Below the pieces are notes generated by a model that worked only from the letters and a program-made list of their open reading frames with translations, searched no databases and was not told the origin of the DNA. A stretch of 45,324 nucleotides of DNA, taken from assembly GCA_036002485.1 (NCBI GenBank), contig DASYTI010000122.1, forward strand, positions 1-45,324, read 5' to 3'. Made by a program: the position numbers and the translations under genes. Within the stretch, counting starts at the first letter, position 1. Every line of letters starts with the position of its first letter. Shown here piece by piece: positions 30,370-34,341 of this stretch. This DNA is from Candidatus Methylomirabilota bacterium. GTDB lineage: Bacteria > Methylomirabilota > Methylomirabilia > Rokubacteriales > CSP1-6.

Positions 30370-31671
30370 TCAGCGCGGCACAGGCTCGAGCCTCACCACC
30401 GTGGGCGATGCCAGGTAGGTCTTGGCCACGCGCAGCACATCATCGGCCGAGACGGCTTCGATCGCGCGAACGTAACGGTCCGCGAAGTCGTGGCCGACTC
30501 CGGCCGCTTCATAGAACGCCGCGTACCAGGCGAGGCGGGCATTGGTTCGTCGGTCGAGGGCGAACTGTCCGAGGAGGTAGGCTTTGGCCCGATCCAGCTC
30601 ACCTTCCGACACCCGCTCGCCGCGGATCCGCTCGACCTGTGCCCGCATGCCGTCCTCGGCCTTTCCCGCGCTGGCCGGCGCGGTGCCGATGAAGGCGAGG
30701 AAGAATCCCGGCTCGACGCGGGCTGGATAGAGCGCGCCCGTCGAGTAGGCCAGACCTTGCTTGTCACGGAGCTCGCTGAAGAGGCGACCGGCCATGCCAC
30801 CGCCGAGCGCCACCTGCAGAACCTTGACCGCGGCGTAGTCGGGGTGGCCGATGGGCGGGGCCAGAAAGCCGAGCATGATCTGCGCCTGGGCGGCTGGCCG
30901 ATTGATGACCAAGCGGTCGGGGGAGGCCGACGGGGCGCCCAGAGGCGCATCTCCCGTCTCTCGCTCCCGCGGCGCGTTCGCGAAGAGCCGAGCAACCTCA
31001 TCCACCGCTTGGCGGGCGGGCACCTGCCCGCTGATCGCGACGATGATGCGGCCAGCGCGATAGTAGCGATCGTAGTGCTCCACGAGAGTCTGCCGGTCGA
31101 GCCGCTCGACGGCGGCCCCCCGTCCGAGCGACGGGGCGCCATATGGGTGGCTCCGAAAAAGGCGGTCCATCAGCGTGTCGTAGGTGAGGGGAAACGGCTG
31201 GTCGAGTCGGTTCTTGATCCCGCTGGCGATGACCCGCCGCTCATTGTCGATCTCCGCCGGGGGCAATGCGGGATGGAGCGCCACGTCCGCCATCAGGGCG
31301 AGGAGCGACTTCCAGTGCCGCGCCAACGCCGTTCCCCTGATCTCGGCGTAGTCGGTGTCTCCCGACGCGCTGAGGCTGCCGCCCATGGCTTCGGCGGCCT
31401 CCGCGACATCGAACGCCGTCCGGCTGGTGGTGCCCTTGACGAGCACCTGCTGCAGCAGGTTCGTGATGCCAGCATTGTCTTCACGTTCCCAGCGGCTGCC
31501 GACCCTGACCAGCACAGAGACGGCCACCGCCGGCGTCGCCGGATTCTCCTGCACGAGGACGACGAGCCCGCTGTCGAGACGCTGGCGAATCCAGGTTGCT
31601 TCCGCGGGGGTCGCGACGGAGGAGGCTCCGAGAGCGGCGGCCATGATCGCCGCGAGTGCGGTGCGTGTCAC
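30370..31671 (-). CDS. M16 peptidase-like protein lacking the HxxEH zinc motif (inactive partner)
   Basis: Secreted or periplasmic member of the M16B (pitrilysin/MPP) family. From the GTG at 31671 it is 433 residues, with a signal peptide ending near ATPAEA. The two M16 domains are recognisable (LDSGLVVLVQENPATPAVAV, RLFRSHPYGAPSLG, then VLQVALGGGMAGRLFSELRD). Where the zinc motif HxxEH should lie, near residue 72, the sequence reads AGITNLLQQVL. It keeps the Arg and Tyr of SELRDKQGLAYST; known M16B heterodimers use such a pair from the inactive subunit to complete the active site. It overlaps the active M16 gene by four bases, so a heterodimer is the natural reading. The longer frame to 32172 is a shadow. 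Confidence 0.88.
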   Translation of the reverse strand: MTRTALAAIMAAALGASSVATPAEATWIRQRLDSGLVVLVQENPATPAVAVSVLVRVGSRWEREDNAGITNLLQQVLVKGTTSRTAFDVAEAAEAMGGSLSASGDTDYAEIRGTALARHWKSLLALMADVALHPALPPAEIDNERRVIASGIKNRLDQPFPLTYDTLMDRLFRSHPYGAPSLGRGAAVERLDRQTLVEHYDRYYRAGRIIVAISGQVPARQAVDEVARLFANAPRERETGDAPLGAPSASPDRLVINRPAAQAQIMLGFLAPPIGHPDYAAVKVLQVALGGGMAGRLFSELRDKQGLAYSTGALYPARVEPGFFLAFIGTAPASAGKAEDGMRAQVERIRGERVSEGELDRAKAYLLGQFALDRRTNARLAWYAAFYEAAGVGHDFADRYVRAIEAVSADDVLRVAKTYLASPTVVRLEPVPR

Positions 31672-33011
31672 GATCCCGCCCTTTTCGGCACGAGGGCAAG
31701 CCGGGCGTAAGAGGGTACGAGGTATCGCCGGGCTGCCTCCTGGATCTGCTTCCGCGTGACTCGATTCAGCCGCTCGACATACCCTCGATCCTCCTCCAGG
31801 CTCCACACTGTCTCGGCGCGGCCGTAGGCCAGTGCCAATCCTTCGGCCGTCTCCCGCCCGAACACGCGCTGAGCCTCGGCCGCCGTCACTGCCCGTTCGA
31901 CCTCGGCCGTCGTCACACCGTCCTCTTGGATCCGGCGGATCTCGGCGAGGATCGCCGCTTCCGCCTTTTCGAGATCCTTCGCCTCCAGCTGAGCGGTGAC
32001 CGTGACCGCCCCGCCACCCTCTAGTGTCCCGTAGCCCGCGCTGATCGTGGACACCAGCCGCGTGCGTTCGCGCAGCGACTGCGTGAGCCGCGACGTCAGC
32101 GACCCGCCCAGTATGTGGGCCAGGAGATCCACGGCGTACATGTCCTGGTCTCTCAGCTTCGGTGCGCGCCACCCCAACCCCAGAGATGCCTGACGCTCGG
32201 ACCGCTCGAGACTCTGGCGTCTATTCTCACCAAGGGCCGGCTGAGGCGGGAGGGGCACCCGGCGGAACGATCCGCCGGCCGCGTCTCCGAATGCCCGCAC
32301 GGCAGCGGCCCGAACCGAGGCTGGATCCACCGCGCCCACCACGACCAGCGTCATGTTGGCCGGGACATAGTGGCGCTTGTAGTAGCCACGCAGTGTCTCG
32401 CGCGATGCGGCCCGGAGCGCGGCAGGATCGCCGAGAACCGGGAACCCGTAGGGATGCGCCGTGAAAACCAGTTCGTAGAGTCGCCGCACGAGAAATGATC
32501 GCGGGTTGTCTTCACCGAGCCGCACCTCTTCAAACACGACTTCGCGCTCTCGAGCGAGCTCCGTCGAATCGAAGGTGGAGTTGAACGCCATATCGGCCAT
32601 GACCTCGATGGCGCGCTCTGCGCGGCGCGAGGGCAGCAGCATGTAGTAGTACGTATAGTCGAGCGAGGTCGCGGCATTCGTACGCCCTCCCACGCGTTCC
32701 ACCTCGCTGTCCACGAATCCCGGTCCCAATCTCTCCGTTCCCTTGAAGAGCATATGCTCGGCAAAGTGCGAGAAGCCTCGCTCAGAGGGTGCCTCATCGC
32801 GGCCCCCGACGCCCACCCAGAGCTGGACGGACACGACTTCGGCGGTGCGGTGTTCCTGGATGATGAGGCGAAGCCCATTGGGCAGCACTTCCCGTGATGG
32901 CGGCGTCAGCGGTGGGCTTGCGGATATGGACGTGCGGGATGTGGTACAGCTGACCAGGAGAACCGCGGCGACTGTCCAGACCGCGAATAACTCCATTGAT
33001 CGACGCTTCAT
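31668..33011 (-). CDS. M16 zinc peptidase, catalytic subunit, probable lipoprotein
   Basis: Catalytic half of an M16B peptidase pair. The zinc motif HFAEH (SHFAEHMLFKGTERL) lies near residue 83, with the downstream metal Glu in EREVVFEEVRLGEDNPRS. The N-terminus is a lipoprotein signal: VWTVAAVLLVSC, with the lipobox LVSC placing Cys near residue 22, so the mature protein is probably membrane-anchored in the periplasm. Residue 2 after the Cys is Thr, which favours outer-membrane sorting under the Escherichia coli rule; the rule may not hold here. The ATG at 33011 lies nine bases after a TAGGCT box. A second ATG at codon 6 would also keep the signal. Confidence 0.92.
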   Translation of the reverse strand: MKRRSMELFAVWTVAAVLLVSCTTSRTSISASPPLTPPSREVLPNGLRLIIQEHRTAEVVSVQLWVGVGGRDEAPSERGFSHFAEHMLFKGTERLGPGFVDSEVERVGGRTNAATSLDYTYYYMLLPSRRAERAIEVMADMAFNSTFDSTELAREREVVFEEVRLGEDNPRSFLVRRLYELVFTAHPYGFPVLGDPAALRAASRETLRGYYKRHYVPANMTLVVVGAVDPASVRAAAVRAFGDAAGGSFRRVPLPPQPALGENRRQSLERSERQASLGLGWRAPKLRDQDMYAVDLLAHILGGSLTSRLTQSLRERTRLVSTISAGYGTLEGGGAVTVTAQLEAKDLEKAEAAILAEIRRIQEDGVTTAEVERAVTAAEAQRVFGRETAEGLALAYGRAETVWSLEEDRGYVERLNRVTRKQIQEAARRYLVPSYARLALVPKRAGS

Positions 33012-33049: not shown

Positions 33050-33221
33050 CTCGGTCACCCGGGGGCCAGGGGGGAGTCCTCAGTGCGTCTTTTGGGGGCA
33101 CTTTGCCAAGAGCGGAGCGGGGATCTCCTCGGGCAGAACGCCGCCTCCCACCGTGTAAGGGTACCTGCTGTTAGCTATGCAAGTAGGTGATTCATTGGCA
33201 TTTACCGAGCTGGAGACCATG

Positions 33222-33237
33222 TGGCACCGCTTCTGCA
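33222..33237 (+). promoter_or_regulatory. Candidate sigma-54 (-24/-12) promoter for the repeat-protein gene
   Basis: TGGCACCGCTTCTGCA has GG and GC separated by exactly ten bases, as required by RpoN, with TGGCAC matching the -24 consensus and CTGCA close to TTGCA. Transcription would begin near 33248, leaving a leader of about 118 bases. No enhancer-binding site was identified. Confidence 0.35.
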
Positions 33238-33365
33238 CTCTACCCCCCGCGAATGGCAGAATCGAGTAATAACGACTGGATTCTTAGGGATGCCCCAGGC
33301 TCAGTGGGGAGTCGATGGGGCGAGCGGCAGTAGGGCCTACAACCTATATGGAAAGGACGAAGACA

Positions 33366-33905
33366 ATGAAGAAGTTGCTTGCAGCGGTTCTCAGCGTGGC
33401 GGTGGCGCTGTCGCTCTCGCCCGCTCTGAGCTCGGCTCAGTCCAGCAGTTGCCCCGCGGAAGTCACGCAGGCGAAGGACATGCTGAGCAAGAAGACGGCG
33501 TCGGTCAAGCCCGACGAGATCCAGGCCCCGCGGTCGCTGGCTGGCGCACGGCAGAACGAAGCCCAGCAGGCTCCTCGCGGCAACCAGAACCTCCAGGCTC
33601 CGCGTGGTAACCAGGATGTTCAGGCGCCCCGCTCTTTGGCTGGTGCGCGCCAGGACATTGAAGCTCCTCGCGGTAACCAGGACCTCCAGGCTCCTCGTGG
33701 CAACCAGAACGTGCAGGCGCCCCGCGGCAACCAGGATCTCCAGGCTCCTCGGACTAGCACTGGCGCCACCGCTACGGCCCAGGCTCCTCGGGCTGACATG
33801 ACGAAGGCTGCTTCGCTCGTGAAGGAAGCGGAAGCCGCTTGCAAGGTTGGCAACATGACGCTGGCTTCGGACAAGGCCAAGGCGGCGCTGGCGATCCTGA
33901 AGTAA
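33366..33905 (+). CDS. Secreted QAPR-repeat protein of unknown function
   Basis: I do not recognise this 179-residue protein. The ATG at 33366 is preceded by GGAAAGGACGAAGACA and opens a clear Sec signal peptide (MKKLLAAVLSVAVALSLSPA, cleavage near SSAQ). The mature part has an N-terminal helix-forming segment with Cys29 (CPAEVTQAKDMLSKK). Then come nine repeats starting [QE]APR (residues 53-142), most often nine residues long, as in QAPRGNQDL, with 13- and 15-residue variants QAPRSLAGARQ. An Ala/Lys-rich C-terminal helix with Cys159 follows. The two Cys could join the two helices. The array is Pro/Arg/Gln/Asn-rich and probably extended. It is one of only two plus-strand genes, is flanked by a strong terminator, and looks monocistronic. 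A role in the periplasm or at the cell surface is inference. Confidence 0.82.
   Translation: MKKLLAAVLSVAVALSLSPALSSAQSSSCPAEVTQAKDMLSKKTASVKPDEIQAPRSLAGARQNEAQQAPRGNQNLQAPRGNQDVQAPRSLAGARQDIEAPRGNQDLQAPRGNQNVQAPRGNQDLQAPRTSTGATATAQAPRADMTKAASLVKEAEAACKVGNMTLASDKAKAALAILK
33522..33791 (+). repeat. Nine tandem [QE]APR repeats inside the secreted protein gene
   Basis: Units start at codons 53, 68, 77, 86, 99, 108, 117, 126 and 139. Their lengths are 15, 9, 9, 13, 9, 9, 9 and 13 codons, then a final partial unit. Synonymous codons differ among units (CAGGCTCCTCGC, CAGGCGCCCCGC, CAGGCCCCGCGG), so the repeat is conserved as protein more than as DNA. Confidence 0.9.
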
Positions 33906-33929
33906 TAGAAGACTAGACGTCGATCCACC

Positions 33930-33968
33930 GAGGCCCCGGAGATCCCACCTCCGGGGCCTCTTCTTTTT
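33930..33968 (+). terminator. Intrinsic terminator of the repeat-protein gene
   Basis: A perfect 12-base stem, GAGGCCCCGGAG with CTCCGGGGCCTC, closes a seven-base loop and is followed by TTCTTTTT. It lies 24 bases after the repeat-protein stop. The T-run is on the plus strand only, so it does not clearly terminate the convergent HIT gene. Confidence 0.93.
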
Positions 33969-33990
33969 GGCTCGCGAGGGGCCAGAGCGA

Positions 33991-34323
33991 TCAACCACGA
34001 CGGCCCGCGGTGAGATGGAAGTGAAGGTGGTGAACAATTTGCCCGCCCTCGGGTCCCGTATTGCACGTGAGGCGGTAACCTCGCTCGCCATATCCCGCTC
34101 GCTCGGCCAGGAGCTTGGCGACGTGGACACAGCGACCCATCACCGCCTCGTCGCCGGGCTCGAGCCTCGCGATCGACTCCACGTGTCGTTTCGGGATGAT
34201 GAGCAGATGCACGGGTGCCTTGGGGTAGAGATCCTTGAAGGCCAGGACAAGATCGTCCTCGTATTCGATGTCCGCCTCGGTCTGGCGGGCAACAATCCGG
34301 CAGAAGACGCAGGCCGAGGTTAT
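33991..34323 (-). CDS. HIT-family hydrolase with an apparent ATA start codon
   Basis: Histidine-triad nucleotide hydrolase, HinT-like. Translating upstream of the short 73-residue frame gives a full 110-residue HIT protein: the N-terminal zinc-type CVFCRIVARQTEADI, VLAFKDLYPKAPVHLLIIPK, then GYRLTCNTGPEGGQIVHHLHFHL with the triad HHLHFHL. The only in-frame stop upstream is TAG, 20 codons before the first Cys, and no ATG, GTG or TTG lies between it and the core. ATA at 34323-34321 is the best start: it gives (M)TSACVFC and has AAGGG eight bases upstream. A GTG at 34212 would remove the first third of the fold. A mutated start, rare initiation, or a sequence error are the options. Confidence 0.78.
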   Translation of the reverse strand: MTSACVFCRIVARQTEADIEYEDDLVLAFKDLYPKAPVHLLIIPKRHVESIARLEPGDEAVMGRCVHVAKLLAERAGYGERGYRLTCNTGPEGGQIVHHLHFHLTAGRRG

Positions 34324-34341
34324 GGGTCGCCCTTGGTCGTG

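Follow-up and report, generated by a model that had tools for sequence, protein, structure and literature searches.

A predicted secreted protein with an array of QAPR repeats and a candidate sigma-54 promoter in Candidatus Rokubacteria

The window analysed here is the whole 45,324-nucleotide stretch of contig DASYTI010000122.1, from a 4.4 Mb genome whose named relatives are Candidatus Rokubacteria. On the plus strand, positions 33366..33905 encode a QAPR-repeat protein of 179 amino acids. The gene is preceded by a Shine-Dalgarno-like GGAAAGGA (33350..33357, plus strand), read directly, and followed by an intrinsic terminator on the same strand (33930..33960), with 12 pairs and then TTCTTTTT. 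Residues 1-24 (33366..33437) form a predicted signal peptide, with cleavage probably near ALSSA-QSS. According to the alignment of the ends and the AlphaFold model, an N-terminal helix with an invariant CP (residues 29-46, 33450..33503) and a C-terminal helical hairpin with the invariant Cys159 (residues 143-179, 33792..33902) flank an array of nine [QE]APR units (residues 53-142, 33522..33791) that is predicted to be disordered. In the model, the first helix spans residues 31-46 and the hairpin residues 140-161 and 164-178, with a pLDDT of about 40 for the array.

The initial annotation had taken the reading frame to be real in view of its ribosome binding site, signal peptide and own terminator, all of which are present. 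It had also described the array correctly: the units start at residues 53, 68, 77, 86, 99, 108, 117, 126 and 139, the spacings are exactly 15-9-9-13-9-9-9-13, and each end has one cysteine. When residues 51-142 were shuffled 20,000 times, the motif occurred on average 0.04 times and at most twice, versus nine times in the actual protein. The proposed secretion agrees with the signal peptide and with the hydrophobic N-terminus, which is conserved among relatives, and the AlphaFold model bears out the predicted helices on both sides of the array. In the relatives examined, the canonical gene contains no stop or frameshift, with several copies cut by contig ends or runs of N. An antisense frame (33240-34130) is also open, but this was attributed to the high G+C content, and the plus-strand frame is preferred because of its orthologues and its low pN/pS. 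The gene over-uses GCT and CCT (16 of 37 alanine codons are GCT, against about 7% in the genome). The genome's ribosomal genes do not show this excess, so that codon usage does not support high expression or high protein abundance.

Searches with the window protein did not connect it to a known family. The best Pfam score was 10.4 bits and the best NCBIfam score 30.1 bits (against 500), both below the curated cut-offs, a PDB sequence search returned no match at E 1, and a Foldseek comparison with PDB folds gave none with E below 0.8. A text search of open-licence papers found no description of a QAPR repeat. A match to the collagen-like adhesin Lcl (NF046116, E 1.7e-7) was rejected as compositional, at 30 bits against a cut-off of 500. 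Both are low-complexity, Gly/Pro/Gln-rich secreted arrays, but the QAPR array lacks Gly-X-Y periodicity. Matches to phage tail fibres and plasmids were likewise put down to composition. Judged by its sequence, the QAPR repeat thus belongs to no described family among the Pfam, PDB and NCBIfam libraries tested, as the initial annotation had suspected. For this analysis, we defined a QAPR family with helical ends by a CP-containing helix, a [QE]APR array and a C-terminal hairpin with a cysteine. The window protein has all three.

Of the 57 genomes from the window's family, 50 encode the QAPR protein, among them 34 of the 35 good ones. It was not found in the three other families of the order that were sampled. 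One family of Rokubacteria, uncultivated inhabitants of soil and groundwater, seems to carry it almost universally. The genome collections were scanned with GNQD-type peptides, which biases the apparent restriction to Rokubacteria towards this variant, and other QAPR variants may occur in other phyla. The locus is conserved as well. In the window, the gene is divergent from an M16 peptidase gene with an HFAEH motif (31668..33011, minus strand) and is followed by a gene for a HIT-domain protein (approximately 34010..34330, minus strand). In 22 other loci, genes for a rhomboid protein and two M16 peptidases, the divergent neighbour among them, lie on one side and the HIT-domain gene on the other; an ABC ATPase gene often separates the latter from the QAPR gene. 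Two loci (L033, L061) retain the QAPR gene, and the M16 pair was not detected in them. In four assemblies (G004, G063, G021, G018), contig ends fall inside QAPR arrays, which makes unit counts and absences in draft genomes unreliable.

The number of units varies greatly, as had been anticipated. It ranges from 6 to 41, with a median of 15, among 30 distinct full-length relatives, and differs widely even between near sisters (6 versus 25, 9 versus 23, 15 versus 21). Every full-length member with helical ends nevertheless keeps at least six. Comparison of units within arrays gave a pN/pS of 0.36 for the window gene and of 0.19 for 31 genes pooled, with pS of about 0.3-0.7. The initial suggestion of selection on the protein is thereby strengthened. 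Since synonymous divergence far exceeds nonsynonymous divergence, the units are not products of recent slippage, and the peptide sequence is maintained. In their DNA the units thus look old, and as protein they have stayed constant.

A profile built only from the helical ends, with the array left out, retrieves secreted proteins of 80-100 residues that lack repeats. Besides the window's family, a second family of the class contains them; array-bearing members were not found there. Profile-profile comparison (hhalign) links them to the QAPR ends with a probability of 98.3 and an E of 1.1e-14. For a repeat-less relative, AlphaFold predicts three helices, mostly with pLDDT above 90. The same three helices are predicted for the window protein, with the disordered array between the first and the second. 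Because the three-helix core is shared and the array sits between helices 1 and 2, the array is most simply read, from sequences and models, as an insertion into an older small secreted three-helix protein. Going by the tree, in which long branches meet, repeat-less lines may instead have lost it, but the second family has only repeat-less members.

Both cysteines are invariant in the alignment of the QAPR ends, and a disulfide between them had been proposed. In the repeat-less relatives, the N-terminal CP is also invariant, but the second cysteine is replaced by histidine, in an H..G.H motif instead of the C..G.M of the QAPR proteins. As these relatives keep the first cysteine and have a histidine at the second position, a metal site and a disulfide seem equally good readings of the sequences. 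The repeat-less relatives recall SmbP, a small secreted helical bundle. A Pfam match to SmbP (PF16785, E 0.024), seen for the repeat-less relative only, is below the gathering score (15.2 versus 29 bits), and its top Foldseek match, SmbP structure 3u8v (probability 0.91, E 0.84), is not significant. Moreover, the relative is not His-rich, and QAPR proteins have no SmbP match. The repeat-less secreted proteins at loci L120-L132, with conserved C and H..G.H, may bind metal and show the same weak resemblance. Matches to DUF4398 and TPR-like hairpins, which share a C-terminal A..L...A......G......A..A pattern, were sub-threshold and confined to repeat-less relatives.

With the repeat alone as the query, other carriers were found. 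One group combines it with a peptidoglycan-binding domain (L025/L084, L037 and L085; PG_binding_1, Pfam E 5.7e-15). Another consists of tiny repeat-only proteins, in which two to eight QAPR-type units follow a signal peptide and the last residues are often QAPRG (L141-L150, L183-L195). Finally, the viral contig IMGVR_UViG_3300036860_000228 encodes, immediately after a portal gene (PHROG 156, E 2.4e-87), a 146-residue protein (L197, 9002-9442) that has five QAPR units but lacks a signal peptide. This contig has a G+C content of 60%, and its host is presumably Rokubacterial. Further searches of viral and phage sequences with other repeat variants did not find a second phage. The carrier at L037 (VAYJ01000065) belongs to a genome that is labelled Actinobacteria but stems from a sampling campaign that also yielded Rokubacterial genomes, and its contig may be mis-binned. 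Since the repeat recurs on unrelated exported scaffolds, it is most simply the repeat itself that acts as the functional element, as far as sequences can tell. This previously undescribed repeat vocabulary is displayed on exported scaffolds of three or more kinds and also occurs in the phage gene next to that for the portal.

At 11 loci, a repeat-only gene adjoins a gene for a membrane histidine kinase, in most cases with an NtrC/AtoC-type sigma-54 regulator beyond it. A search for the kinase sensor in the family gave 13 genomes with a close copy; in 11 of these, the kinase gene lies next to the repeat-only gene and is divergent from it. The sensor is of a multi-helix membrane type without an obvious periplasmic domain. 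The window genome has no repeat-only gene, and its kinase homologue is only distant. This gene arrangement led us to scan upstream regions for -24/-12 promoters. In the window, a candidate site GTGGCACCGCTTCTGCA of the form GG-N10-GC (33221..33237, plus strand) scores 13.5 of 15.5 and precedes the ATG by about 145 bp; the genome has a gene for RpoN. Scores of at least 13 of 15.5 were obtained for 35 of 45 QAPR upstream regions versus 14 of 142 control regions, taken from upstream of neighbouring genes, and scores of at least 14 for 23 of 45 versus none of 142. Of the 14 control sites, 11 precede the NAD kinase gene and fall within or beside conserved coding sequence. For QAPR genes with helical ends, 27 of 32 reach 13 and 15 of 32 reach 14; for repeat-only genes, 8 of 13 reach either threshold. 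No good site precedes the remaining five repeat-only genes or a few paralogues, and none was seen for the PG_binding_1 versions (L025/L084, L085, L037). When upstream sequences from many genera are aligned on the site, TGGCA and TGC are kept, whereas most of the flanking sequence has diverged. Activation of the QAPR genes apparently depends on RpoN, a stress-type sigma factor. Some 40 bases before the -24 box (33180-33200 in the window), canonical QAPR genes also keep an A+T-rich GTAAGTA-like element; inspection by eye did not find an enhancer motif common to canonical and repeat-only promoters. With the sites and the kinase/regulator pair nearby, what was an orphan curiosity becomes a regulon that can be tested, and one that offers a handle on the envelope or aggregation biology of abundant uncultivated soil bacteria.

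Two known systems come close. In zraP/zraSR, the gene for a small secreted protein is divergent from a kinase/NtrC-type pair, with a sigma-54 site between them (PMC4987338). The likeness concerns the divergent repeat-only QAPR genes with their kinase, regulator and sigma-54 site, not the window gene itself. ZraP has no such repeats, no ZraP model is among the Pfam and NCBIfam matches of the window protein, which these scans covered, and the kinase and regulator stay below the ZraS and ZraR cut-offs (205 versus 479 and 391 versus 760 bits). PepA of Aquincola is an RpoN-dependent PEP-CTERM protein with a mapped TGGCAC/CTGCTT promoter, the overexpression of which lowered released exopolysaccharide and restored floc formation (PMC9850573). 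The PEP-CTERM/PrsK/PrsR/RpoN system shares with the QAPR genes secreted proteins, -24/-12 promoters and a histidine kinase with a sigma-54 regulator, and its TGGCAC...CTGCT sites are nearly identical to those of repeat-only QAPR genes. However, QAPR arrays are not a PEP-CTERM feature, QAPR proteins end in AxxILK or QAPRG instead of a PEP-CTERM sorting tail, and the regulator and kinase reach only 384 versus 503 bits (PrsR) and 89 versus 300 bits (PrsK). With their export, disorder, RpoN-type control and a repeat that recurs on a scaffold binding the cell wall, the QAPR proteins resemble both arrangements, and by sequence they are a member of neither.

What the array does can be framed as follows, in a reading that we regard as an even call. 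RNA polymerase with sigma-54 (RpoN) would transcribe the QAPR gene, and the product would be exported to the envelope or extracellular matrix of Rokubacteria. There, a three-helix bundle, derived from a repeat-less, possibly metal-binding periplasmic protein, would carry the array between helices 1 and 2. The long, disordered, hydrophilic and net-positive strand would be the working part of the protein, a multivalent ligand whose target would lie in the periplasm, cell wall or exopolymer, and the lineage would tune the avidity through the number of units. The signal peptide, the conserved locus, the low pN/pS, the re-use of the repeat and the sigma-54 sites support this reading; it is weakened by the possibility that disorder and repeats make a mere spacer and by the QAPR genes without a sigma-54 site. 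We infer export to the periplasm or beyond and use of the promoter, and likewise that envelope stress or aggregation is the trigger and that the strand works by multivalent binding. The probable insertion into an older protein, the sharing of the repeat between unrelated exported proteins and a phage, and the conserved candidate sigma-54 promoter, none of which the initial annotation had recognised, outweigh the bare anatomy of the gene.

Other readings have to be weighed against this multivalent ligand. Unlikely, but with points in its favour, is a periplasmic metal-binding envelope-stress protein like ZraP or CpxP, which would feed back on the sigma-54-linked kinase and regulator while the strand contacts misfolded proteins or the sensor. 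The divergent arrangement of repeat-only genes with a sigma-54 site in between would fit, as would the weak SmbP signals of the repeat-less core and the ligand-like residues (Cys with His..Gly.His, or Cys with Cys..Gly.Met). Yet it is precisely the repeat-only proteins beside the kinase that lack a metal-binding-like core, the sensor shows no obvious periplasmic domain, and both the SmbP and the fold matches are below significance. We consider it improbable that the neighbouring M16 peptidases cut the array into short peptides, to serve as nutrient, signal or inhibitor. The divergent M16 neighbour of 22 other loci speaks for such a partnership, and the two same-genus genomes that lack the orthologous M16 gene make it suggestive, since the QAPR gene there immediately precedes another M16 gene, of 937 aa. 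The link is weakened by L033 and L061, and no repeat-only gene examined has an M16 gene next to it; the conserved neighbourhood may be plain synteny.

Still less probable is an idle flexible spacer, a minisatellite expanding at low complexity in a tolerant loop with no binding role. Free change of unit number between near relatives and predicted disorder would be expected of it, but not a pN/pS of 0.19 with high synonymous and low nonsynonymous divergence, a minimum of six units in all full-length members with helical ends, or the recurrence of the motif on unrelated scaffolds, some of them proteins made up almost entirely of it; this reading is already disfavoured. The least probable reading takes the arrays as multi-copy signal-peptide precursors, from which M16 peptidases would release (G)xQDVQAPR-type units; the kinase would sense them, its NtrC-type partner and sigma-54 would switch on more QAPR genes, and the phage copy would be a decoy. 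If true, this would amount to a peptide-signalling circuit in an uncultivated lineage. Near the kinase gene, L204 and L205 also contain genes starting MSWLD; in L204 (G063), the MSWLD gene lies downstream of a sigma-54 site, in the place where the repeat-only gene would be.
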